A stretch of DNA of 64,000 nt from an uncultured Prevotellaceae bacterium (GTDB taxonomy: Bacteria > Bacteroidota > Bacteroidia > Bacteroidales > Bacteroidaceae), in the NCBI GenBank assembly GCA_900319225.1, contig ONNV01000003.1, forward strand, positions 1 to 64,000, in the 5' to 3' direction. The notes below the pieces were generated by a model that worked only from the letters and a program-made list of their open reading frames with translations, made no database searches and was not told the origin of the DNA. The translations under genes were made by a program, and so were the position numbers. Positions 40,132-52,465 of this stretch are shown in pieces (position 1 is the first letter of the stretch; each line of letters starts with the position of its first letter).

Positions 40132-40157
40132 GTCCGTAATTATAATTGTTTATGGTT

Positions 40158-40189
40158 CAAAGATATTACACTATCCTCTGCTTTCCAAA
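40158..40189 (-). promoter_or_regulatory. Promoter of the beta-propeller lipoprotein operon
   Basis: Minus-strand -33 box TTTG (40186-40189) and -7 box TATCTTTG (40158-40165), 20 bases apart, 27 bases upstream of the start codon. A plus-strand -7 box TAAATTTG for the divergent oxidoreductase gene lies at 40199-40206. Confidence 0.75.
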
Positions 40190-40223
40190 CAGAAATAGTA
40201 AATTTGCATTGTTTTACGTTAAT

Positions 40224-41795
40224 ATGGTAAAGGAGATTCAACTTAGGGTAGAACCGCAGTTTGCTTACAATGAGCAGGTGCTCAAGCAGACCGTTTCAAG
40301 GCAATGTGCTATTGATGTGCGCACCATCAATGCAATCCACACACTTAAGCGCAGCATTGATGCACGTCAGCGTACCATATTCATAAATCTAACGTTACGT
40401 GTCTTTATTGGAGAGGAGCCACCCAAGACCCAATACACCCCTATTGAGTACTATCCCGTTGATGACAAGCCCGCAGTGATTGTAGTTGGAGCCGGCCCCG
40501 GAGGACTCTTTGCGGCCCTGCACCTGATTGAGCTTGGACTGCGCCCCATCGTGATAGAGCGCGGCAAGAACGTACGTGACCGCAAGGTTGACATAGCCGC
40601 CATAAGCCGCACCCATAAGGTAAACCCGGAGTCAAACTACAGCTTTGGCGAGGGCGGTGCCGGCGCCTACTCTGACGGTAAGCTCTACACCCGCAGCAAG
40701 AAACGCGGCAATACGGACCGCATACTGAACATATTCTGCCAGCACGGAGCCAGTGAATCCATACTGTCCGATGCGCACCCCCACATAGGCACCGACCGCC
40801 TGCCCCGTGTGATTGAGAACATGCGCGGCACCATACTGCGCTGCGGCGGTGAGGTCCATTTTGAGACCCTCATGACCGGATTCATACTGGACGGCAATAA
40901 GGTGATAGGCATTGAGGCCACACATGCCGGAGAGCAGTGCCGCTTTATGGGTCCGGTAATCATGGCCACCGGTCACAGCGCCCGTGACGTTTACCGTTAC
41001 ATGGCCGCCCAAGGGTTCAACATTGAGGCCAAGGCGCTGGCCGTAGGTTGCCGTCTGGAACATCCTTCACAGCTTATTGACAGCATACAATACCATAACC
41101 GTGCCGGCCGCGGCAAGTATCTGCCTGCAGCAGAGTACAGTTTTGTAACCCAGGTTGACGGCCGCGGCGTATATAGTTTCTGCATGTGTCCTGGCGGATT
41201 CGTGGTTCCGGCGGCATCGGGACCGCAGCAGATTGTGGTAAACGGCATGTCACCGTCGGGCCGAAACTCCCGCTGGAGCAACTCAGGCATGGTGGTGGAG
41301 ACCCGCATTGAGGATGTAGCCAAGAGTGATGCCGATATGCATGACCCGCTCCTTATGATGCGGTTCCAGGAGCAGCTGGAACATGACTGCTGGCAGGCCG
41401 GAAATATGCGTCAGACCGCACCGGCCCAGCGAATGGCCGATTTCGTGAACCGCCGTCTTAGCTATGACCTGCCTGAGAGCTCCTACTCGCCCGGCCTCAT
41501 ATCATCACCCCTGCATTTCTGGATGCCGGAATTCATAACCGAGCGCCTTAAGCAGGGATTCCTGCAGTTTGGCAAAAGCAGCCACGGGTTCCTTACCAAT
41601 GATGCCGTAATGATTGCGGTAGAGACCCGTACATCATCACCCGTACGCATACCGCGTGACGGCGATACGTTACAGCATCTGGGCCTGGAGGGACTGTTCC
41701 CCTGTGGCGAGGGTGCCGGATATGCCGGCGGAATAGTATCATCGGCCATAGACGGTGAGCGCTGTGCCGACTCAGTAAAAGCCTACCTTTCATGA
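40224..41795 (+). CDS. FAD-dependent oxidoreductase (COG2509 type)
   Basis: A 523-residue flavoprotein. The start ATG 40224 gives MVKEIQLRVEPQFAYNEQVL, the start of the small N-terminal domain of this family. The FAD-binding motif is VIVVGAGPGGLFAALHLIEL near residue 92, followed by ERGKNVRDRKVDIAAI, NYSFGEGGAGAYSDGKLYTR, and a C-terminal GLFPCGEGAGYAGGIVSSA. The substrate is unknown. Its stop overlaps the next gene (ATGA), so it may be the first gene of the cassette to 44977; but this family is widespread as a solitary gene, so membership in the pathway is only suggested. Confidence 0.88.
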   Translation: MVKEIQLRVEPQFAYNEQVLKQTVSRQCAIDVRTINAIHTLKRSIDARQRTIFINLTLRVFIGEEPPKTQYTPIEYYPVDDKPAVIVVGAGPGGLFAALHLIELGLRPIVIERGKNVRDRKVDIAAISRTHKVNPESNYSFGEGGAGAYSDGKLYTRSKKRGNTDRILNIFCQHGASESILSDAHPHIGTDRLPRVIENMRGTILRCGGEVHFETLMTGFILDGNKVIGIEATHAGEQCRFMGPVIMATGHSARDVYRYMAAQGFNIEAKALAVGCRLEHPSQLIDSIQYHNRAGRGKYLPAAEYSFVTQVDGRGVYSFCMCPGGFVVPAASGPQQIVVNGMSPSGRNSRWSNSGMVVETRIEDVAKSDADMHDPLLMMRFQEQLEHDCWQAGNMRQTAPAQRMADFVNRRLSYDLPESSYSPGLISSPLHFWMPEFITERLKQGFLQFGKSSHGFLTNDAVMIAVETRTSSPVRIPRDGDTLQHLGLEGLFPCGEGAGYAGGIVSSAIDGERCADSVKAYLS

Positions 41796-42655
41796 CCGAT
41801 ACAGGGTATTACATAGTAGCTGAGCATCTGTTCGGCGTGGAGGCCGATGAGAGTATGCTTGCTCTCATGACCAACTATGCTCCGTTCAAAGTTGGACAGT
41901 CTGACAATCAGGATGTGCTGTTCTACGTCTCTATTGTTCAGGGAGAACCTGTAAGCTACGTTGAGGAGTGGCGACAGGATGAGGAGGGACAGGATACCAT
42001 TTGCGGACATACAGAGGATGGCAATCCGGTGTTTGAGTTCCGGTTTGGAGGCAAGACTGCCGGATGGCTGGTCTGCACGCCGGGATATCGTAGCGGTATA
42101 CTCCATTTGAGCGGATTCCACTCAAAGGCTGCACTTGACAATGCGCTCATGATACTGTTTGCCATGGCATCGGCCTGTACAGGGACGGTTCTTTTCCATT
42201 CGGCTGTGGTTAGTCTGGATGGGCGCGGGTACATGTTCCTGGGCAAGAGCGGTACGGGCAAGAGCACACATGCCAGACTGTGGCTCCAGAACATTCCCGG
42301 AACTGAGCTGATGAATGATGACAACCCCGCCGTACGCGTAAAGCCGGACGGTACGGCTGTGGTTTATGGCACTCCCTGGAGCGGCAAGACCCCCTGCTAC
42401 CGCAACGTAAGCGCCCCGCTTGGAGGCATTGTGCTTCTGAGCCAGGCACCTTACAACCGCATTACAAGGCTTAATGGTATAGGTGCATACGCCGCCGTGG
42501 TGCCAAGCATATCGGGTAAACGTTGGGATGCACGCATTGCAGATGGCTTGCATGAGACAGAAAATGCGCTGGCCACATACATACCGGTTTGGCATCTGGA
42601 CTGCCTGCCCGATGCCGATGCCGCACACCTGTGTAAACAAACGATAGCCCTATGA
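41792..42655 (+). CDS. HprK-related P-loop kinase
   Basis: A 287-residue protein whose C-terminal half resembles the HPr kinase/PEP carboxykinase fold: HSAVV at 136-140, Walker A FLGKSGTGKST (149-159), then LMNDDNPAVRV (173-183) and a VYGTPWSGKTPCYRN strand. The N-terminal 120 residues are not recognised. Such proteins occur in RiPP clusters; some in lasso-peptide clusters phosphorylate the precursor. It has no HPr-type signature context here. It overlaps both neighbours by four bases, indicating tight coupling with the S26-like peptidase and PqqD genes. Confidence 0.8.
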   Translation: MTDTGYYIVAEHLFGVEADESMLALMTNYAPFKVGQSDNQDVLFYVSIVQGEPVSYVEEWRQDEEGQDTICGHTEDGNPVFEFRFGGKTAGWLVCTPGYRSGILHLSGFHSKAALDNALMILFAMASACTGTVLFHSAVVSLDGRGYMFLGKSGTGKSTHARLWLQNIPGTELMNDDNPAVRVKPDGTAVVYGTPWSGKTPCYRNVSAPLGGIVLLSQAPYNRITRLNGIGAYAAVVPSISGKRWDARIADGLHETENALATYIPVWHLDCLPDADAAHLCKQTIAL

Positions 42656-43101
42656 CCGATGAGCAGATCATACAGGAGGCCGTGCGCCTGGTGCAGGATG
42701 GCGTGAGCGTGACATTCCCCGTCAAGGGCCGCAGCATGCTTCCGTTCATCATTGGCGGACGCGAAAGTGTGGTTTTGCAAAAGCCCGATGAGCTCAAGGT
42801 GGGAGATGTGGTGCTGGCTGAGATTGCTCCTGAGCATTATGTGGTGCATCGTATTATACGCATCGGTCCCGATGACCGAATTACCCTGATGGGTGACGGC
42901 AATATACGTGGCACAGAGAGCTGCACACGTGAACATGTGCTGGCACGCGCCACACATGTGGTAAATGCAAAGGGAGAGCGCCGCTCATTGGATTCAAAGG
43001 GACAGATGTTCAAGGCCAGGGTATGGTATCGGATACGTCCGCTGCGCAGGATCATACTGGCTGTACTTAGAAGAACAATAAAGAAATACGCGATAATATG
43101 A
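42652..43101 (+). CDS. S24/S26 signal-peptidase-like serine protease
   Basis: A 149-residue protein with the S26 fold. The likely nucleophile is Ser28 in VKGRSMLPF. The second catalytic residue appears to be His66 in HYVVHRIIR rather than Lys, as in the S26B (SipW/ER signal peptidase) type; LMGDGN (79-84) is the next conserved box. There is no N-terminal membrane anchor; a basic stretch near the C-terminus (RIRPLRRIILAVLRR) could bind the membrane. In this cassette it could cleave a leader peptide, as the exporter has no C39 domain; that is inference. Confidence 0.82.
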   Translation: MTDEQIIQEAVRLVQDGVSVTFPVKGRSMLPFIIGGRESVVLQKPDELKVGDVVLAEIAPEHYVVHRIIRIGPDDRITLMGDGNIRGTESCTREHVLARATHVVNAKGERRSLDSKGQMFKARVWYRIRPLRRIILAVLRRTIKKYAII

Positions 43102-43367
43102 AGATAAAGAAAGGATATATACTGCGCACAGTGTGCGGTGAGAACGTAATAGTTGGTGAGGGCCTGGATGCCATCAATTTCGGGCGTATGCTCTCTCTGA
43201 ACGAGACCGCCGCCTGGCTCTGGAAACAGGCTGTCGAGCAGGGTGATTTCACCGCTGAGAGTCTGGCAAACGCGCTGTGTGATGAGTATGAGGTAACTCC
43301 TGATCAGGCATTGGCCGATGTAAAGGAGACCATAAACCAATGGACCGAACTTAAAGTTGTAGAGTGA
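43098..43367 (+). CDS. PqqD family peptide chaperone (RiPP recognition element)
   Basis: An 89-residue PqqD-fold protein, starting MKIKKGYILRTVCGENVIVG, with LSLNETAAWLWKQA and a C-terminal helical part ending INQWTELKVVE. PqqD domains bind the leader of a precursor peptide and present it to the modifying enzymes. A stand-alone PqqD beside a kinase, protease and exporter is a strong sign of a peptide pathway. It overlaps both neighbouring genes by four bases. Confidence 0.9.
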   Translation: MKIKKGYILRTVCGENVIVGEGLDAINFGRMLSLNETAAWLWKQAVEQGDFTAESLANALCDEYEVTPDQALADVKETINQWTELKVVE

Positions 43368-44977
43368 AGTATTCAGGCTGGATATGGCGTAACACACAGG
43401 GTATCCGCCTTAACACTGCGGTACGAATTGTGGCAGGCACGGCGCAGGTTGCCATGGGCCTGCTCATGGTATGGCTCAGCCGCCGCTTCATTGATGAGAC
43501 TATCCGTACCGGCACCACACGTGATGTCATTGTCATGGTCACATGGCTGGTACTGACCGTAGTGGGCGGTGTGCTGCTGCGTCAGGTCTATTTCCTGCTC
43601 ACTACAAAGGCAGGAATCCGCCAGACCAACGCCATCCGCCTGCGCATGTTCAGCGGGCTGTTCCGCCGCCAGCTCTATGACGAGAAAGAGATACACTCGG
43701 GTGATATCAGTTCCCGTCTTACCAAGGATATCGAAGTGGTATCTGAGACCACTACCGATACCCTGCCCCAGATGTGCATCACCGGCATACAGCTTATAGG
43801 AGCATTCCTACTGCTCCATTATTTTGACCGATGGCTGGCCTGGGCACTGCTCATAATGACCCCGCTTGCCATACTGATGGCCAAGTTCATAGGCCGCCGC
43901 CTGCGTCAGATGACGCTTGACATACGTCAGGACGAAAGCCGCATTCAGATGCAGGTTCAGGAGGGCATGGAGAACAACGCCGTACTGCGTGCCATGGGCA
44001 GCCAGGAGTGGATGACCGGCCGTCTGGACACCATGCAGCAGAAGCTCAAGGGCAACATAATGCGCCGCACCCGCTTTACCATAATGATACGTATCATACT
44101 GGGCAGCGCATTCGGCCTGGGATACCTGCTGGCATTCGTATGGGGAGGCCTTCAACTGCGCAATGGCGCCATCACATTCGGTATCATGACATCGTTCCTG
44201 CAATTGGTAGGCCAGATCCAGCATCCCGTAATGCAGCTGCTAAACCTGGTTCCGCAGGTGATACACTCCACCGCCAGCATAGACCGTCTGGCCGAGCTTG
44301 AGAGCAACGCCGTGGCCGATACAGGCACGCTGCACCCCACTCTGCGCGGAATAAAATTTGAGAATGTGAACTTCCAGTATGCAGGCGGTGACCGCCAGAT
44401 AATGACCGGTTTCAGTCATGATTTCCGGCCCGGCACCAAGACCGCCCTCATGGGTGAGACCGGCATAGGCAAGACCACCCTGTTCCGCCTGATGCTTGGA
44501 TTCATAAGTCCTGACAGCGGCAGCATAAATCTTTATGGTGATAATGAAAGTTTGACGGCAGGAGCAGAGACCCGTCCCGACTTTGTGTTCGTGCCACAGG
44601 GCAACACACTCATGAGCGGCACCATCCGCTTCAACCTGCAGGTGGCCGATCCGGATGCATCGGACGAAAAACTAAAAGAGGCCCTTCATACCGCCTGCGC
44701 CGATTTTGTGCAGGAACTCCCCGACGGTCTTGATACCCTGCTCGGTGAGCGCGGCAGCGGACTGAGCGAAGGCCAGGCCCAAAGAATAGCAATAGCCCGG
44801 GGCTTGCTGCGCCCGGGCTCCATACTGCTCCTTGATGAGATAAGTTCATCACTCGATCCCGAAACGGAGACAGAGCTTTACCGCCGCCTCTTTAAGGCTT
44901 ATCCCGACAAGACTATGATCTTCATCACTCACCGCACCGCTGTCACCACGCTCTGCGACTCGGTGCTCAATCTCTAG
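43364..44977 (+). CDS. ABC exporter with fused membrane and ATPase domains
   Basis: A 537-residue half-transporter of the ABC exporter type. Six transmembrane helices (residues about 1-310) come first, with no C39 peptidase domain. The ATPase part has Walker A MGETGIGKTTLF, signature LSEGQAQRIAIARGLL, Walker B ILLLDEISSSLD and the switch His in FITHRT. It probably works as a homodimer and exports a peptide. It is the last gene of the coupled set and ends 11 bases before a long inverted repeat. Confidence 0.92.
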   Translation: MKYSGWIWRNTQGIRLNTAVRIVAGTAQVAMGLLMVWLSRRFIDETIRTGTTRDVIVMVTWLVLTVVGGVLLRQVYFLLTTKAGIRQTNAIRLRMFSGLFRRQLYDEKEIHSGDISSRLTKDIEVVSETTTDTLPQMCITGIQLIGAFLLLHYFDRWLAWALLIMTPLAILMAKFIGRRLRQMTLDIRQDESRIQMQVQEGMENNAVLRAMGSQEWMTGRLDTMQQKLKGNIMRRTRFTIMIRIILGSAFGLGYLLAFVWGGLQLRNGAITFGIMTSFLQLVGQIQHPVMQLLNLVPQVIHSTASIDRLAELESNAVADTGTLHPTLRGIKFENVNFQYAGGDRQIMTGFSHDFRPGTKTALMGETGIGKTTLFRLMLGFISPDSGSINLYGDNESLTAGAETRPDFVFVPQGNTLMSGTIRFNLQVADPDASDEKLKEALHTACADFVQELPDGLDTLLGERGSGLSEGQAQRIAIARGLLRPGSILLLDEISSSLDPETETELYRRLFKAYPDKTMIFITHRTAVTTLCDSVLNL

Positions 44978-44988
44978 TTGAGCAAAAG

Positions 44989-45118
44989 GGGGCCAAAGGG
45001 GACGGTTCCGTTTGGCTCTTTTGCAGTAACCTAAAAAGAAGCAGTAAAGGCTAACACTTTCACTGCTTCTTAATTATGTGCAAAGGGGGAGCCAAACGGA
45101 ACCGTCCCCTTTGGCCCC
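44989..45118. repeat. Long inverted repeat, GGGACGGTTCC family
   Basis: Perfect 30-base arms at 44989-45018 and 45089-45118 (GGGGCCAAAGGGGACGGTTC and on), extended by TTTTGCA / TGCAAA. The loop holds a further hairpin (45037-45072). The right arm touches the stop codon of the 36-codon peptide gene, and the left arm lies 11 bases past the ABC exporter stop. Confidence 0.9.
45037..45072. terminator. Hairpin inside the inverted repeat, likely bidirectional terminator
   Basis: AAGAAGCAGT..AAAG ... CTTT..ACTGCTTCTT with an A-rich flank on the left and TAATTA on the right. It lies between two convergent transcription units. Confidence 0.6.
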
Positions 45119-45228
45119 TAGCCGAGCAAGTCACCCCACTCCAGGGGGATTTCTTCACTACCAACAAGAACTTGCGGAGCCTGTATCTTGATTTCTTCTG
45201 TACTGGGTTTGATATATGTCTTTTTCAT
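45118..45228 (-). CDS. 36-residue peptide with a YxxP leader motif; candidate RiPP precursor
   Basis: ATG at 45228, TAG at 45118-45120, only 10 bases after the stop of the giant secreted protein. The product begins MKKTYIKPSTEEIKIQ, with Y5-x-x-P8 and alternating Ile/Lys, as in leader peptides bound by PqqD-type recognition domains (for example the KKQYSKPSLEV type of lasso leaders). The remainder is LVG followed by SEEIPLEWGDLLG. If cut before G23, an acidic residue (E30) falls at core position 8. A PqqD/kinase/peptidase/exporter cassette is encoded convergently just beyond. Short peptides of this type are common near surface proteins in Bacteroidetes; expression is not proven. Confidence 0.65.
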   Translation of the reverse strand: MKKTYIKPSTEEIKIQAPQVLVGSEEIPLEWGDLLG

Positions 45229-45238
45229 ATTCTGCTTC

Positions 45239-48200
45239 TTATTCTGTTATCATCACTTTCTTGCCATCTGAGTTAAGGTACAGGCCAGGAGCGGTGGGAG
45301 TGCCCTCAACAGGCTGGCCGTTCAGGTAGTACCACTGATCTATTGTTATCTCACCGGTATTCATGTTTATGGTTCCGGTGGCGGTTGTAGCGCCGTCACT
45401 GCTCAGCAGACGCACCTTGATACGGTCAGGTATGGCAGGTATTTCTGCCGTGCCCCTTCCGGGAGCCTTCAGAGCGGTGTTACTGCCGGAATATGTAAGG
45501 TATGCGCGGAACGGCAGTATGTAAGCGCCGTTGCCAGCCTTCACGAACTGGCCGGCCTCAACATCGGTCACACCATCTGTAGCCTTACCATTTTTGCCGG
45601 CAAATCCGAATACGTTACCGGAGAACCCTTCATCACCGTAATCCTTACGACTGTAGGTGCCGTGGAATGTCCAGTCACCGCTGGTGGTTGCTCCTGCAAC
45701 TGGCGATATATCGTCCGGTACCCTACCCACAAATGACCATGTACCTGTATAAAATGGTAGGAAGAGATAAGGTTTACCTGCCTCCGTTTCAATATCCAGA
45801 TTACCCTCGTTATCTATTTCAATCTCCTCCATAGTCGCAATCCAACCTTCCTGGATATTGTAAGTTACATCAACAAACTTGAAGAGATTACCGACAAGCA
45901 GATTTGAAATACTGAACGGCAAGCATATAGTGGTAGCTATGTCTTCTGTATAATCACGGCTGAAACTAACCAATCTTCCTGCTATATCATCAACATTAGC
46001 ATCAGTAATGCCATCAGACTCCGTGATATTGTATGACTGGTAAGGCATTAAAGTCTTTCCCGACAGTTCATCAATCTGGGGATCATCCAAATAACCATAA
46101 TAAAAATCATTTCCGTCAGTAAACACCTGTCCCGGATAGATGACGAAGTAATTGCTGCGATAACCGCCAGCAGTTACACGATCTGTAGTATTTCGCCATC
46201 CAAGCGCCATCATATCACAAATAATACTGTCACCCATGGTATTGATGATTCCGCTGTACAATATCAAATTATCAGCAATTATTCCAATTCCTTTGAATTT
46301 TTCAATATCTGTCTTTTTTGTCGTTATTTTACCACCATTGATCGTAAGATAATCATCGACATATAGAGCAGAGTTGATGCAACCCATATCATCACCACTG
46401 CTTTGAGCATAAATGGTAATATCATTGTATTCAACAATAATAGCATCTGCAGTAAGTGTAGCTCCATCACATAGTATCAGATGGGTTTCTCCTTCAAAGC
46501 AAATCGTTCCATTGACCGTCACCTGACCGTCCACAAAAAACCAACCACTACCCTCATATTCAATATCACCTTCATGATCAGTAATTGGTACAGCGGCAGG
46601 ACAAACATGAATTGTCCCAATTGAATCAATATAGCTGATATTAGGCTTGCCCATCATGGCATAGATGGTATCATTGTCATATACTAGCAATGTGTATGAA
46701 TTGTCTGTTCTACTCAATGAGCCACCGTTTGCAAAGAATACAGGCACATTACCCTCCGGCACTGTGCCGGTATAACTCAAATCAAGACTGACATTAGCAT
46801 TTTCAGGAAAATACAATACTCCTTTATATTCAAAGGCTCTGTCATAGCTGTTTATACTCAACAAGACATCAGTTCCTGAAGTGATGGTGTATATGTCCTT
46901 ACTGGTAAAACCTGAATCCGAATGGGTATTGCAGCAATTAAGATAATGGCAATTAATTCTTAATGAACCCCAATCATAATCACCCCAAATTATGCCTACC
47001 CATATCTTACCTGAAACTAAGGTTTCGACCACAAAACAGTTCTCCAATATGCCATAGATTTTTCCCACAACACCACCGACATAATTATTACCCCTAATAT
47101 CGGCACCTTGGATAACAACATTCCTGACTACGCCACCCGATTCTACCACGCCAAAAAGACCTTGATAACTCTCATTGGATTGGATGTTTATACCGCTTAC
47201 TGTATATCCATTTCCGTCAAAGATACCTTCAAAAGGATTTGAATCAGTTCCGATAGCCGTATAGTTATTCTCTATACTGCTGTCATACTCTATATTTCCA
47301 CCCAACTTGAAATACTTGCCGTTATAGTCGTTGCCATCGTTCACCAACGTAGCCAGCAAGTTTAGACCGGCTGTGGTGGTGATGGTGTAGGCTTTGTCGG
47401 CTGTACTGCCGTCTTTACCTGCGCCAATGCCCCAAAGGTCGGTGACGGTTGCGCTGACAGTAACATTCTGAGTCGGCACGGTGAAGGTGTAGGTTTCATC
47501 ACCATTGTCGGTAGCGGTCACACCTGCAACTGCCACACCGCTCATTTTGCAACCCATCCTGGCTCTCAGAGTAATGACACTTTCAGGCAGCGCGTAGGCC
47601 GTGATACCATCTTGACTTATAACACCTGTGGCGACGACATGCTCCGGCAAAGCAATAATGCAGCAAGGCTGCAGAGTCTTGCCTGCAATGGCAGTCTTCT
47701 CGGAATCGGTGAGCGTGCCGGTGTAGACTGCTGTGCCGTCGGTTAATGCCTGGCCAGATTTCACGTTGATGGTGCCGCCAAGTGCTTTGTAACTGCTGGC
47801 GGTTATGCGGTCAGAGGTATTTCGCCACCCTAGGGTGATGTTTCTTGAGCTAATACCCTCGTCACCATTAACATTCACAATGCCTCCGTTTATAGTAAAG
47901 CTGAAACCAACCTTGATACACCATATTGTAGGTACACCGCTCAGATTACCAGAATTGTCGAAAGCCACATTTATGTTACCGCCGTTGATAGTGAATTCAG
48001 AACTTAAAGAAAAGCAAGATTGGAAACCACCACAAGTAACGTTAATACTACCGGAACCTAGTCTTTGGCCATAAATGGAAAGGTTTCTGCCACATATAAC
48101 ATCCCCGAAATGCCTGGTTAGGTTAAGAGTGGCTCCATCACAAAGAATCAGATGGATGTTTGACTGTTCAAAATTCAATCCCTCATCGATTGTTATATCA

Positions 48201-51200
48201 CCACGAACCACATACCAACCTTCATCAAGTTGACCGCCGCTACTGAGCAGAGTGTAGTTGGTACATTGCTGTTCTACACCATCGGCGTCAATGTAAGGCA
48301 CGCTGTACCTGCAGGTGACGGTGGCATCAGCAGCAGGCATGGTAACGATCCAGTTGAAGCCTTCGTCTGAGGAGGTGGCGGGGATGTCATCCACCTTCAC
48401 ATCTGTGATTTTATAGCCTTGGTCATGACTAAGAGTGACCTGCACATCCGAAGCATAGTAAGTAGTTGTGCCTATGGTCACCGTATCGGAGCTGCTGGCT
48501 GTGACATGCTCAGGCAACGTGAGGGTGTAGACGCTGCGGACACCATCAAGGTCGTTACTGCTAACACCTATGTTGGTGGTGTATGTGGTTTCGCCTATGG
48601 TGACTGTGCAGTTTTTGTAGTGGTTGTTGGTGAGGGTTAAAGAGCCTCCGCTGAAGCCATATACACCACATTTGTTGCCACTCGTAACAGTTATGCTTGT
48701 GTTCATAACCAAGCAGTTGCTAATAGTGGTTTTATACAAATAACCTATAATACCGCCGACATAGTTCTTTCCGGTAATGCTTGCACCATCGATGATTAGG
48801 TTCTTGACAGTTCCCTCAGAGATGTGACCAAAAAAGCCGACAACGTCAGAGTCGTTGCTCCTGTCGATTGTAACATTGCTGATGGTATGGCCGTCGCCAT
48901 CGAAAGTACCCTCGAAGTAATTAAGACGAGAGCCTATTCCGTCGAAGGCCACACCGTTCATATCAATATCGTTGTCCAACTTGATGAACAGACCTGTACA
49001 TTTGTTGCCTCCGTTCACATAGTTGGAGAGTTTCACAAGTTGTGATGCGAATTTAATAAGGTATGGATCGTTCTCGCTGGTACCGGTACCCGTCCAATCG
49101 ATGAGGCTCCACTGGGCGTAGAGAGTTATCACGCCGTTTAACTCAGTGGTAAGGTTTTTCACACTCTGTCCGTCAGTATAGACATCACCGTTGCCCTCAG
49201 GTTGGGTGTTCCATCCTGCGAAGGTGTAGCCCTCGCGGATGAAGGCGTTTGTGGTGAGGTTTTGTGCTTGGTCGTAAGTAAGCACTTGGTCATCCATCGT
49301 GCCGGTGGCGTTGATGCCGTTGGTGGCGTTGGCGTTAAAGTGCACGGTGTAGGTGTTGGCCTCTCTTGTGGCGGCCACTGTGGTGTTGGCTGTCGGCATG
49401 CTGAAGCTCCACACGCCTTGCTCAGCGTTGATGGTGGTAGCCGAGCCGCCCACAGGGGTGTAGCTCGCGCTGGTGATGTGATAGCCAGCGTCAGTGAGCA
49501 GCGTCACCACCTCGCCCGCCGGAGCGTAGCCATGATGGGCGGTGGTGCCTGTCACTGTGAAGTCGTCAAGCAGCGTGATGCTGTATGCCGGCTGGAGGGT
49601 AACTTCGTGGAGGTTGAGATAATTTATTCCATTGCTATAAAGGTAGCCTGCACCGTCGGTGAGTGTCAGCCCGGCTTTCACGGTGAGGGAGCCGCAGTTA
49701 TAACTCGAAGCGGTGATGCGGTTGGCGGGGGCGGTGTAGCCGAGGGTGATGGGATAGTAGCTTGCATCTATGCCTTCGTTGGTACCAGAAGCGCTTATGA
49801 TGCCGCCATAAAATCCCAAGGCACAAGAACTGATGCCATTATTAACTGAAGCAGTGGCATTCAAGGTGCCGTTGCCGTTGGATTGACCAAAGATATTGAG
49901 GTCATTGGCAATAACAGCATCATGATTATTATAATTGTAGTTGTTAACAGTGAGTGTGGCGCCGTCGCAAAGGATGAGGTTGGCGGTGGCATCAAGAAGC
50001 GATAGAACTCCATTGATAGTGGCGTTGCTGCTCACCACATACCAATGGGTCTTGCCCGAGTCACCCAATTGGATATAGTCGTTGAAGCTGGTGATGACGG
50101 TGTAGTCATTGCATTGCTGCTCGTTGCCGTCGGCATCTAGGTAAGTCACCACAGGCAGTAGGGTGGCGTTCACGGCAACATCATAATAAGGCATGGTGAG
50201 GACGTTGACGTTAATATCGGAAAAGGTGATGTCGCCGCTGCTGGTAGTGGCGGTGTATTTCACGAACGAGCCTGAGGGCACGCTTTCGCTGTAGCCCAAG
50301 GTGATGTCGATGTTAGGAGTGTAGTATTCTTCGCCGCTCAGCGTGATACCGTCGCCATAAGTGGTCAGCGTGGTGTTGACGGTTGTGCCACCTGTTCGGG
50401 TGACGGTGGCGTTTTCGTTTAAGGTAAGTTTCACGATGTTGTGGTAGCCTCCGACGCTGCCAAACATGCAGTCTTTATAATAGGCGCGGGTGACGGTGCC
50501 GCTGCCGGAGCCTCTAATAATGTCCCTTGACGAGCCTGAATTAGCTTGGATACGTGAATTATAGACGTAGCAGTCCTGGATGGTGCCGCCAGCGCTGCCC
50601 GCTACGACACCCACCTGGTTTTTACCCACGATATTGATGTCATAAAGAACTAGGTTCTTCACCATACTACCGGAATAGGTCAAGCCGAAGAGTCCTTGGC
50701 ATTCGTCAGTATTGGCGCTGCCGCTCTTATAGATACGGATGCCGCTGATGCTGTGTCCGTCGCCGTCGAAAGTGCCTTTGAACGAATTGCCCCAGCCGCC
50801 GATGGATGTAAAGTTACTGGTAAAGCTTGTGGTCTTATCCCAAGTGTCGTCATTGCTGTGGCTATATTCTATGTCGGAACCTAGTTTGAAATATATGTCT
50901 CTGAAACTCTTTCCATCCGGGTTGCCGGTATAGCCACCCCACACTTCCTTGGCAAGACAGTCTAGCTGCCAAGTGCTGCTGATGATATATGGATCGCTCT
51001 CGGTGCCGCTACCCGTCCAGGGGCTTACCACAGTTAGGCTGCTGAAGCTCTTATTGATGGAGGTGCTGGTGTTATACAAGTTGCCAGCCAAGTCTTTCAC
51101 GGTGCCGCTGATGCTGTTTACGGTTAAAGATGTACCTTCATTGGCAGAAATTACACCGCTAAATGTAAGTACGTTACTGCCCGAGCCGGAGTAGTAGCTG

Positions 51201-52465
51201 AGCGTGCCCCAGGTGGTACTGAGTGTCGGGGTGCCGCTCACGGTCACGACCTCGTTGAACGGCACGGAGATATACACCGTGTTGCCGTAGCCATAGATGC
51301 CACCGGCCACTTTGATGTCGTTATTGATGATGGTGGGGGCGGTACCATCAACAAGAGCCATACGGACAAATAAGTCCTTGTACCCCCAGGTATCGTCATT
51401 ATCGCCACCGGCATCAAAGCGGGTGGTGATGTTGCCGACGGTGGGATCCAGTACTATCGCTCCAGAGCCATTATAGTCGTCGGACTTGAACTTCTGCTGC
51501 CAGAGTTTGCCAGTGGAGAGGCTGAACTCGCTGGTGGTTGTGCCGCGATGAGGGAAGTAGGCCTTGCCCTCGGCGTTGCTGCTTGTGGAAAGCTCGAAAC
51601 AGGTCTTATAAACAGAATTCACAGGATTATTGACGCTCTTATCTGGGTCGTAGCCGGTATCGTAGCTAGCGCTGCTGTTGCCTGCAATAATCTGAATATA
51701 CTGGTAGCCGTCGTCCTTTTCTTTCTCGGTGAAACAGACTGTGGCGTAGATTTTGTAGCCAATGCTGTTGAGGTAAGTAGCATCAGCACCGGTAGTATTG
51801 ATGAGGTCGCTGGTGCTGACAGTGGCAGGCTTCTGTGCGTAGTCGTAGCCGTCATCGATGAGGACGTAGCCATTTAGAGTACCGCTGGTTTCCACCTGGC
51901 TGGTGGGCGGGGTGTAATTGACATCCAAGTATTTGCTGCTGCTGACATCGCTAGTATAGTTGCCGCTGCTGTTAAAATAGACCAAGTCCGTGATGCTCTT
52001 GCTCACTTTTGTAGTAGAAAACTTCGTACCTGTGGTGAAACTGCGGGTCTTATCGGCCAAGAAGAAACCTCCGTCATCAGTGACCTCCAGTTTGTAACTG
52101 CGGTCGATGCCATTATGGTAATTGTAGGCATCGGTATTGGCAGAGGTATATTCCGTTACTAGAATGGTTTTCTTGTCGTCACCTGCTGCGAAGGTCAGGT
52201 TGCCGCTCAGCGCACTGGAACTCTGGCCGTTAACTTTGGTCACATTGTAATGCTGCCCGGCATAGGCGCTCAGGTTAACCAGACGGTACTTTACCGTCTC
52301 GGCCACAGTCTTGTTGGTGCGGGAAATGGTAAACGTGGTGGTGGTGCCGCTGGTGGTAGCCTCAACTTTCCAACCATTGACGGCCCAGACATTCTGTCCT
52401 ACTGCCAAGCTCAGAACTATGAGCATGGATTTGATGATTCTCCTTAGAACTAAGTCTCTTTTCAT
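45239..52465 (-). CDS. Giant secreted repeat protein with GLUG and bacterial repeat domains
   Basis: 2408 residues with a signal peptide (LIVLSLAVGQNVWAVNGW). After a unique N-terminal part (about 30-480) come three similar modules, each with a GLUG-type region (about 560-640, 1170-1260, 1745-1815; pattern GTFDGDGHTISNV and YVGGIIGYL) and then a region with LILCDGATL, an IYGQ/IFGQ strand and an LGWRNTSDRITA strand. One List-Bact-type repeat with GYTFAGWNTQPEGNGDVYT and ITLYAQWS lies near 1030-1120. The end (IDQWYYLNGQPVEG, then APGLYLNSDGKKVMITE) is the tail seen on many Bacteroidales surface proteins. Likely an adhesin-like or matrix protein; no enzyme domain is seen. Base composition varies strongly along the gene. 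Confidence 0.85.
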   Translation of the reverse strand: MKRDLVLRRIIKSMLIVLSLAVGQNVWAVNGWKVEATTSGTTTTFTISRTNKTVAETVKYRLVNLSAYAGQHYNVTKVNGQSSSALSGNLTFAAGDDKKTILVTEYTSANTDAYNYHNGIDRSYKLEVTDDGGFFLADKTRSFTTGTKFSTTKVSKSITDLVYFNSSGNYTSDVSSSKYLDVNYTPPTSQVETSGTLNGYVLIDDGYDYAQKPATVSTSDLINTTGADATYLNSIGYKIYATVCFTEKEKDDGYQYIQIIAGNSSASYDTGYDPDKSVNNPVNSVYKTCFELSTSSNAEGKAYFPHRGTTTSEFSLSTGKLWQQKFKSDDYNGSGAIVLDPTVGNITTRFDAGGDNDDTWGYKDLFVRMALVDGTAPTIINNDIKVAGGIYGYGNTVYISVPFNEVVTVSGTPTLSTTWGTLSYYSGSGSNVLTFSGVISANEGTSLTVNSISGTVKDLAGNLYNTSTSINKSFSSLTVVSPWTGSGTESDPYIISSTWQLDCLAKEVWGGYTGNPDGKSFRDIYFKLGSDIEYSHSNDDTWDKTTSFTSNFTSIGGWGNSFKGTFDGDGHSISGIRIYKSGSANTDECQGLFGLTYSGSMVKNLVLYDINIVGKNQVGVVAGSAGGTIQDCYVYNSRIQANSGSSRDIIRGSGSGTVTRAYYKDCMFGSVGGYHNIVKLTLNENATVTRTGGTTVNTTLTTYGDGITLSGEEYYTPNIDITLGYSESVPSGSFVKYTATTSSGDITFSDINVNVLTMPYYDVAVNATLLPVVTYLDADGNEQQCNDYTVITSFNDYIQLGDSGKTHWYVVSSNATINGVLSLLDATANLILCDGATLTVNNYNYNNHDAVIANDLNIFGQSNGNGTLNATASVNNGISSCALGFYGGIISASGTNEGIDASYYPITLGYTAPANRITASSYNCGSLTVKAGLTLTDGAGYLYSNGINYLNLHEVTLQPAYSITLLDDFTVTGTTAHHGYAPAGEVVTLLTDAGYHITSASYTPVGGSATTINAEQGVWSFSMPTANTTVAATREANTYTVHFNANATNGINATGTMDDQVLTYDQAQNLTTNAFIREGYTFAGWNTQPEGNGDVYTDGQSVKNLTTELNGVITLYAQWSLIDWTGTGTSENDPYLIKFASQLVKLSNYVNGGNKCTGLFIKLDNDIDMNGVAFDGIGSRLNYFEGTFDGDGHTISNVTIDRSNDSDVVGFFGHISEGTVKNLIIDGASITGKNYVGGIIGYLYKTTISNCLVMNTSITVTSGNKCGVYGFSGGSLTLTNNHYKNCTVTIGETTYTTNIGVSSNDLDGVRSVYTLTLPEHVTASSSDTVTIGTTTYYASDVQVTLSHDQGYKITDVKVDDIPATSSDEGFNWIVTMPAADATVTCRYSVPYIDADGVEQQCTNYTLLSSGGQLDEGWYVVRGDITIDEGLNFEQSNIHLILCDGATLNLTRHFGDVICGRNLSIYGQRLGSGSINVTCGGFQSCFSLSSEFTINGGNINVAFDNSGNLSGVPTIWCIKVGFSFTINGGIVNVNGDEGISSRNITLGWRNTSDRITASSYKALGGTINVKSGQALTDGTAVYTGTLTDSEKTAIAGKTLQPCCIIALPEHVVATGVISQDGITAYALPESVITLRARMGCKMSGVAVAGVTATDNGDETYTFTVPTQNVTVSATVTDLWGIGAGKDGSTADKAYTITTTAGLNLLATLVNDGNDYNGKYFKLGGNIEYDSSIENNYTAIGTDSNPFEGIFDGNGYTVSGINIQSNESYQGLFGVVESGGVVRNVVIQGADIRGNNYVGGVVGKIYGILENCFVVETLVSGKIWVGIIWGDYDWGSLRINCHYLNCCNTHSDSGFTSKDIYTITSGTDVLLSINSYDRAFEYKGVLYFPENANVSLDLSYTGTVPEGNVPVFFANGGSLSRTDNSYTLLVYDNDTIYAMMGKPNISYIDSIGTIHVCPAAVPITDHEGDIEYEGSGWFFVDGQVTVNGTICFEGETHLILCDGATLTADAIIVEYNDITIYAQSSGDDMGCINSALYVDDYLTINGGKITTKKTDIEKFKGIGIIADNLILYSGIINTMGDSIICDMMALGWRNTTDRVTAGGYRSNYFVIYPGQVFTDGNDFYYGYLDDPQIDELSGKTLMPYQSYNITESDGITDANVDDIAGRLVSFSRDYTEDIATTICLPFSISNLLVGNLFKFVDVTYNIQEGWIATMEEIEIDNEGNLDIETEAGKPYLFLPFYTGTWSFVGRVPDDISPVAGATTSGDWTFHGTYSRKDYGDEGFSGNVFGFAGKNGKATDGVTDVEAGQFVKAGNGAYILPFRAYLTYSGSNTALKAPGRGTAEIPAIPDRIKVRLLSSDGATTATGTINMNTGEITIDQWYYLNGQPVEGTPTAPGLYLNSDGKKVMITE

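Follow-up and report, generated by a model that had tools for sequence, protein, structure and literature searches.

The window analyzed here, i.e., positions 1 to 64,000 of contig ONNV01000003.1 from an uncultured Prevotellaceae bacterium (GCA_900319225.1), carries a cassette of four genes encoding a kinase, a protease, a PqqD protein, and an ABC exporter. The four genes probably form a maturation and export set of the ribosomally synthesized and post-translationally modified peptide (RiPP) type for phosphopeptides, acting in trans on precursors that are dispersed over the genome and paired with surface proteins. In support of this reading, the peptide and the kinase tend to occur in the same genomes in each of three samples. 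It is also supported by the leave-one-out detection of a peptide in the window, the coding constraint on the peptide open reading frames (ORFs), and the presence of such peptides at related loci. The fold match of PqqD to lasso B1 proteins, the BsfK-like residues of the kinase, and the stimulation of BsfK by a RiPP recognition element (RRE) point to the same reading, as do kinase-protease fusions and the pairing of peptides with neighboring genes and with a common protein module.

The four-gene cassette

The cassette comprises the following genes.

41792-42655, + strand, HprK/BsfK-like putative peptide kinase gene (KIN), 287 aa; P-loop G151-K157-S158, DD pair D176 D177, and H136
42652-43101, + strand, S26-like putative leader protease gene (PEP), 149 aa
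43098-43367, + strand, PqqD/RRE putative leader-binding protein gene, 89 aa
43364-44977, + strand, ABC exporter gene with GTG start, 537 aa

The gene order is kinase, protease, PqqD, and exporter, and every adjacent pair overlaps by 4 bp. A preliminary description of the same DNA had reported four mutually overlapping genes, i.e., an HprK-like kinase, a separate S26-type protease with S28 and H66, a PqqD domain protein, and an exporter without C39 protease. The overlaps were confirmed by the ORF coordinates, all on the + strand, and the four gene labels were retained on the evidence below.

The PqqD match was firm, i.e., PF05402 at E 1.4e-14, over the Pfam cut-off. The top Protein Data Bank match of its structure model (predicted local distance difference test, pLDDT, 88) was TbiB1 bound to leader, and the next was 6jx3, another B1-leader complex. 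The closest structures are leader-bound lasso B1 proteins (5v1u, 5v1v, and 6jx3). The preliminary description would have been refuted by a model lacking the peptide-binding groove, and this comparison did not refute it. From the fold, the peptide motif, and the co-occurrence described below, PqqD is predicted to bind the leader of short precursor peptides. A sequence search of solved structures with PqqD returned TAL-effector repeats, of which no single stretch was significant by itself, and one line at E 0.69; these were judged to be artefacts.

The kinase showed weak profile matches, i.e., ScmC (1.1e-5), which was the best NCBIfam match with 24.9 bits against a cut-off of 125, and Hpr_kinase_C (0.0093). 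No match was found in a sequence search against solved structures. In its structure model (pLDDT 92.7), PEPCK structures ranked first and the HprK/P structure 1jb1 ranked 45 with probability 1.00. HprK and PEPCK have one fold in common. Residues H136, G151, K157, S158, D176, and D177 were invariant in 76/76 relatives. Compared by their identical order and similar spacing, they correspond to the residues tested in BsfK, i.e., H148, G163, K169, S170, D186, and D187 (PMC10368454).

The protease also showed weak profile matches, both below cut-off, i.e., archaeal-type signal peptidase I (3.2e-6) and Peptidase_S24 (6.8e-4), and no match in a sequence search against solved structures. S26 signal peptidases are marked by a catalytic Ser that works with a His (or a Lys), and by a GD box. 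All of these were present as S28, H66, and G81-D82, and they were invariant in 78/78 relatives. The C-terminus is basic and, by eye, an N-terminal membrane helix is not apparent. In the exporter, ABC_membrane (22-289) and ABC_tran (349-493) domains were found, and the Pfam domain scan gave no C39 peptidase match.

The relatives were the best 80 of 167 loci from a PqqD-pattern scan of genome contigs (L002-L081); L001 and L192 among the fetched loci are the window's own contig or locus. By title, most relatives are Bacteroidales, Bacteroidaceae, Prevotellaceae, or Prevotella, and one is a Fibrobacter. Conserved co-occurrence of the four genes around PqqD homologs, which the preliminary description had named as a supporting result, was observed: all four lie together within 6.5 kb in 72/80 loci. 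The order is identical in 70/80, and the protease precedes the kinase in two. Kinase and protease are fused in 3/80 relatives (L026, L039, and L077). The cassette is considered a unit because its immediate flanks are unlike one another in most loci. A nucleotidyltransferase gene was found near the cassette in 12/80 relatives, with PF14907 in the one scanned (L045). In the neighbor-family tally of 81 loci, where the nucleotidyltransferase family occurred in 10, no recurrent family besides it and the four genes exceeded 14/81 loci.

Conserved neighbors were considered as substrates and rejected on this tally; the most frequent families look like leucine-biosynthesis genes and lie in close kin. 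One further gene adjoins the cassette.

40146-41795, FAD-dependent protein gene, overlapping the kinase gene by 4 bp

It was rejected as a cassette member, with matches in 0/80 relatives and the sole match in L001, the window's own contig. In three loci (L108, L109, and L110), an exporter-protease-kinase block is flanked by two PqqD-like genes; the second scores 28-39 bits and may have a different role.

Candidate precursor peptides and their putative surface-protein partners

Beyond the exporter, a candidate precursor gene and the gene of a large protein were found.

45118-45228, - strand, precursor peptide gene MKKTYIKPSTEEIKIQAPQVLVGSEEIPLEWGDLLG, 36 aa, 140 bp beyond the exporter gene
45205-45216, - strand, YIKP (YxxP) leader motif, Y5-P8, with no change at Y5 or P8 among the 27 aligned peptides
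45157-45159, - strand, junction serine S24, proposed phosphorylation and cleavage point
45239-52465, - strand, partner protein gene, 2408 aa, with the peptide gene 10 bp behind
45248-46021, - strand, C-terminal module of the partner, residues 2149-2406, and the tail GLYLNSDGKKVMI common to partners
44989-45118, inverted repeat with perfect 30-nt arms at 44989-45018 and 45089-45118 and a 70-nt spacer

The window peptide falls under the 40-aa limit of the initial ORF listing. When 1596 small ORFs near the core genes were clustered, with 129 loci covered, its family formed the largest cluster, with 20 loci; it has a lasso-like leader pattern, i.e., YxxP...VVxL...LLxGS. A second cluster (14 loci) was judged to reflect conserved flanks or repeats among close kin and was dropped. 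The peptide alignment (A4) comprises the window peptide and 26 of 35 motif matches; spurious matches (L008 6127, L014, L031 1486, and L187) and near-duplicates (L012, L019, L020 6420, L032, and L059) were excluded. A profile from the 26 other peptides detected the window peptide at E 1.4e-6. With this profile, the next best of 947 window ORFs had 0.2, and no reversed protein was better than 1.6.

At E<0.01, 78 peptide ORFs, 74 of them distinct, were found in the window and the fetched loci. The preliminary description would have been refuted if homologous cassettes never had a small peptide gene nearby, and it named a short YxxP peptide as support; at least one peptide was found on the fetched stretch in 26/80 PqqD-selected loci, and the window has one as well, beyond the part that the description covered. 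The window's own genome holds three matches, and the two others, which are outside the profile, are MDMKKKIYSKPSTTVYEIKMHSNLLVVSDLDGDNPLDWGNPLIDL and MKKRQYTKPSTDIIKLSNTTSLLQASNLDSNIPLDWGVPVFDR. The cores of all three have PL(D/E)WG in common. In general, the cores vary between and within genomes. Sixteen peptide matches per genome were counted in G678 and G684, against one kinase match (G678) and two (G684).

S24 is at least 90% conserved in the 27 aligned peptides and is the sole Ser/Thr/Tyr after residue 10 in the window peptide. Among the distinct peptides, excluding the lone one without YxxP (L061), the junction residue is Ser in 70/73 and Thr in 3/73, it lies 19-20 residues after the Tyr in 70/73, and Gly or Ala precedes it in 51/73. 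The junction rule searched for S/T, so that 73/73 is partly built in, and independent support comes from the spacing and the 27-peptide alignment. The ORFs are under coding constraint, i.e., the proportion of synonymous differences (pS) was 0.48 and that of nonsynonymous differences (pN) 0.17, with pS>pN in 101/102 pairs; the pairs are not independent, and their restriction to at least 60% amino acid identity lowers pN. An NCBIfam scan of eight peptides gave no family, and Pfam gave two chance-level lines (E 0.14 and 0.26).

In the partner protein of the window, a Flg_new repeat (E 1.2e-8), a sub-threshold GLUG match and, by eye, a signal-peptide-like start were found. Such pairing is common, i.e., 67/74 distinct peptides adjoin a gene for a tailed protein or a lipoprotein-like protein. 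Thirty-nine follow, at a distance of up to 150 bp, a gene on their own strand that encodes a protein ending in a GxYI..GKK-like tail, and 28 precede, at a distance of up to 150 bp, a gene on their own strand that has a lipobox-like start; six are elsewhere and one is at a contig edge. As background, the tail occurs in 47 and the lipobox-like start in 87 of 787 genes at peptide loci, partners counted. Both rules are our own regular expressions, and 67/74 is biased as a rate because the peptide loci were picked via PqqD, kinase, and peptide searches.

A C-terminal module profile was made from 40 partners, each represented by its final 260 residues, and the window partner, which is one of these training rows, scored 251.5 bits. 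In the PqqD-selected loci and the window, 22 proteins scored above 100 bits, and a peptide lies directly behind 20 of them; those without are L002 7815 and L035 6012. Behind the lower-scoring module proteins, a peptide was found in 2/9. As the profile was trained on partners, it shows that the module is common to them, and the rate is biased. A 727-aa protein with the partner module (L002:7815-9998) lies between the protease and PqqD genes of its locus.

In most Prevotella-like loci, the peptide ORFs are downstream of the partners. They are upstream in the loci of one genus (g2), where the usual order is the peptide and then a large lipoprotein-like gene. In genome G539 (C1:1797294-1848319; L153, L226, and L227), nine YxxP peptides surround the kinase within 51 kb, and each is followed after 6-89 bp by a large lipoprotein-like gene on its strand. 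This array is possibly a repertoire of surface proteins.

Because the precursor genes are dispersed and mostly lie beside a large surface-type protein gene, the most likely place of action of the peptide product is the cell envelope, together with its partner protein. More narrowly, each peptide may be a dedicated partner, i.e., a cofactor, an anchor, or an assembly tag, of the adjacent giant surface protein or lipoprotein, and serve envelope assembly instead of diffusing away. This narrower proposal is tentative, with a chance not far from even. A diffusible bacteriocin or signal peptide, next to which the surface-protein neighbors would be incidental or receptors, is rather unlikely. The variable cores would suit such a product, and the lasso relatives of the cassette enzymes tailor lasso natural products (PMC9266682). 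However, 67/74 peptides pair with tailed-protein or lipoprotein-like genes, and a conserved immunity gene is not apparent beside the cassette, since no other neighbor family passed 14/81 loci. Moreover, bacteriocin clusters occur sporadically, whereas the kinase was present in 241/301 sampled genomes of the bacterial family.

The exporter and peptide genes converge, and the inverted repeat that separates them is possibly a terminator or a repeat element. Its core pattern occurs nowhere else in the window; of 255 loci, L012 and L192 (the window's own) were the only two with an exact match to the 18-base core.

Co-occurrence with the kinase and proposed maturation

The kinase profile (A1, E<=1e-10) and the peptide profile (A4, E<=0.01) were searched in identical genome samples. 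In the family sample of 301 genomes, 211 had both, 30 the kinase only, 16 the peptide only, and 44 neither (Fisher p 6e-20); G000 and other family genomes that contributed A1 or A4 rows are inside this count. In genus g2 (60 genomes), the corresponding counts were 21/7/1/31 (p 2.7e-9). When the six both-positive g2 genomes that contributed to A4 (G539, G696, G697, G703, G706, and G739) were removed, the counts were 15/7/1/31 (p 2.6e-7). In the phylum sample of 395 genomes, they were 4/6/0/385, and the window's own genome is among the four.

Several points weigh against the preferred reading. The sampled genomes are related and many are incomplete, so that the p-values, affected by phylogenetic non-independence, are too small; the result within genus g2 is the best guard against the effect of kinship. 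Some sampled genomes also supplied profile rows, and some g2 peptide matches are weak (G698 at E 0.006 and G742 at 0.0016). At E<=0.01, the peptide was missing in 30/241 kinase-positive family genomes, and 16 peptide-positive genomes lacked the kinase. PqqD was found in 4/17 peptide-only genomes (the 16 and G720) versus 5/12 with neither, and three peptide-only genomes without PqqD (G457, G469, and G502) are at least 93% complete. On the fetched stretches, no peptide was found in 54/80 PqqD-selected loci. The junction Ser/Thr is the sole hydroxyl residue in 14/73 cores only, and mutations of Y, P, and L in the BsfA leader motif still allowed phosphorylation (PMC10368454).

Instead of encoding substrates, the short ORFs might have a regulatory or leader role in surface-protein operons, with the kinase correlation due to shared ancestry. 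The correlations are uncorrected for phylogeny, and the 16 peptide-only genomes would fit this explanation; nevertheless, it is very unlikely. The association within g2 (21/7/1/31) and the likeness of the YxxP leader to lasso precursors argue for substrates, and because the position of the ORF relative to its partner differs between the Prevotella-like and g2 groups, no single cis-regulatory role fits.

A link to polysaccharide export was considered as well. Here, the kinase and a PF14907 protein would serve capsule assembly by attaching a phospho-sugar to a peptide or glycan, with the YxxP peptides as a side branch. In 13 fetched relatives (L101, L102, L104, L111, L154, L163, L164, L166-L168, L172, L178, and L179; one representative per family scanned), the kinase lies near Poly_export/SLBB (Wza-like) and GNVR/AAA_31 (Wzc-like) families. 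Furthermore, PsmN, an annotated nucleotidyltransferase, is needed for the hexose on phospho-Ser (PMC9266682). However, the window's own genome has no PF14907 match, and no polysaccharide-type gene was seen among the 40 most shared neighbor families of close relatives. In 6/7 kinase-only g2 genomes, the kinase lies in a polysaccharide-export locus, which suggests two kinase branches, this one looking separate. Polysaccharide export is an improbable role for the present cassette.

The preferred reading, i.e., peptide maturation, can be outlined as follows. PqqD would hold the YxxP...VVxL leader of the precursor, and the HprK/BsfK-like kinase would phosphorylate the conserved junction Ser (S24 in the window peptide), a site proposed from BsfK and from conservation. 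The S26-like protease would then cut off the leader close to (G/A)-S, which is beside S24 in the window peptide, and the acidic core would leave the cell through the ABC exporter. Relatives with PF14907 may add a sugar. We infer the order of the steps and the modification sites, as well as phosphorylation, cleavage, export, and function.

The RiPP-type pathway suggested in the preliminary description gains support from the conserved cassette, the YxxP peptides, and the likeness of PqqD to B1; the description had missed the likely substrate, the dispersal of precursors, the pairing with surface proteins, the presence of the kinase in most sampled family genomes, and the nucleotidyltransferase of some relatives. 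A candidate substrate is now named for a cassette widespread in the family by its kinase. Because the precursors are dispersed over the genome, mining based on gene clusters would miss them. Among the literature matches listed, from a scope without most subscription journals and preprints, no description of such a system was found. Rumen and gut bacteria of this kind are abundant, and a joint action of peptides and surface proteins, if real, would link RiPP chemistry to the surface of these cells.

Comparison with known systems

The partners were compared with type IX surface proteins. Their tail, GxYIxNGKKVxIK, presumably resembles a type IX secretion sorting tail; the partners differ in that an NCBIfam scan of seven surface-protein tails gave nothing even at E<=10, i.e., no curated sorting domain.

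The kinase shares a P-loop, a DD pair, and a PEPCK-like fold with HPr kinase/phosphorylase. Unlike that enzyme, it is linked to a peptide cassette, and it is far under the NCBIfam and Pfam cut-offs of the family. The SynChlorMet cassette (ScmC and ScmD) is similar in its HprK-like kinase and PqqD, but no radical SAM enzyme is among the four genes here. In L150, L151, L167, L185, and L186 (one representative scanned), kinase and PqqD-like genes adjoin radical SAM family genes in a SynChlorMet-like manner. Radical SAM and polysaccharide genes were rejected as cassette parts, being found only in more distant fetched loci.

Lasso peptides have a ring from Gly1 to Asp/Glu, and by eye this rule is not evident in the present peptides. 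The preliminary description had seen no asparagine-synthetase-like cyclase or transglutaminase-like protease, and this was extended to the whole genome (84.7% complete). PF00733 gave four matches in three frames, none a cyclase; by NCBIfam they were asparagine synthase B (911.8 bits, as against 140.2 of 525 for the lasso cyclase model), MnmA, and TilS. PF13471, for the B2 protease, gave a single match at E 0.08, below cut-off. The differences from lasso clusters are that no cyclase and no B2 were found, that an S26-like protease is present instead, and that the precursor genes lie scattered and pair with genes for surface-type proteins.

The likeness to kinase-bearing lasso clusters (bsf, paeninodin, and pseudomycoidin) lies in the YxxP leader, a discrete PqqD-type RRE (B1), an ABC exporter, an HprK-like Ser kinase with corresponding residues and, in some relatives, a nucleotidyltransferase. 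In the BsfA pathway, the HprK-like kinase phosphorylates Ser3 of the precursor core, an activity that is strongly enhanced by BsfB1, a discrete RRE (PMC10368454). In pseudomycoidin, PsmK phosphorylates and PsmN is responsible for the hexose on phospho-Ser (PMC9266682). With a PqqD/RRE protein and a ribosomal precursor of conserved leader and variable core, the present set resembles RRE-dependent RiPP systems, and it suggests a new use, without cyclase, of enzymes of lasso-peptide antibiotics. It is best read as lasso-type tailoring without cyclization: as tested, the cassette is not a lasso cluster, yet its predicted action resembles that of the first half of such a cluster, in which the peptide is tailored.

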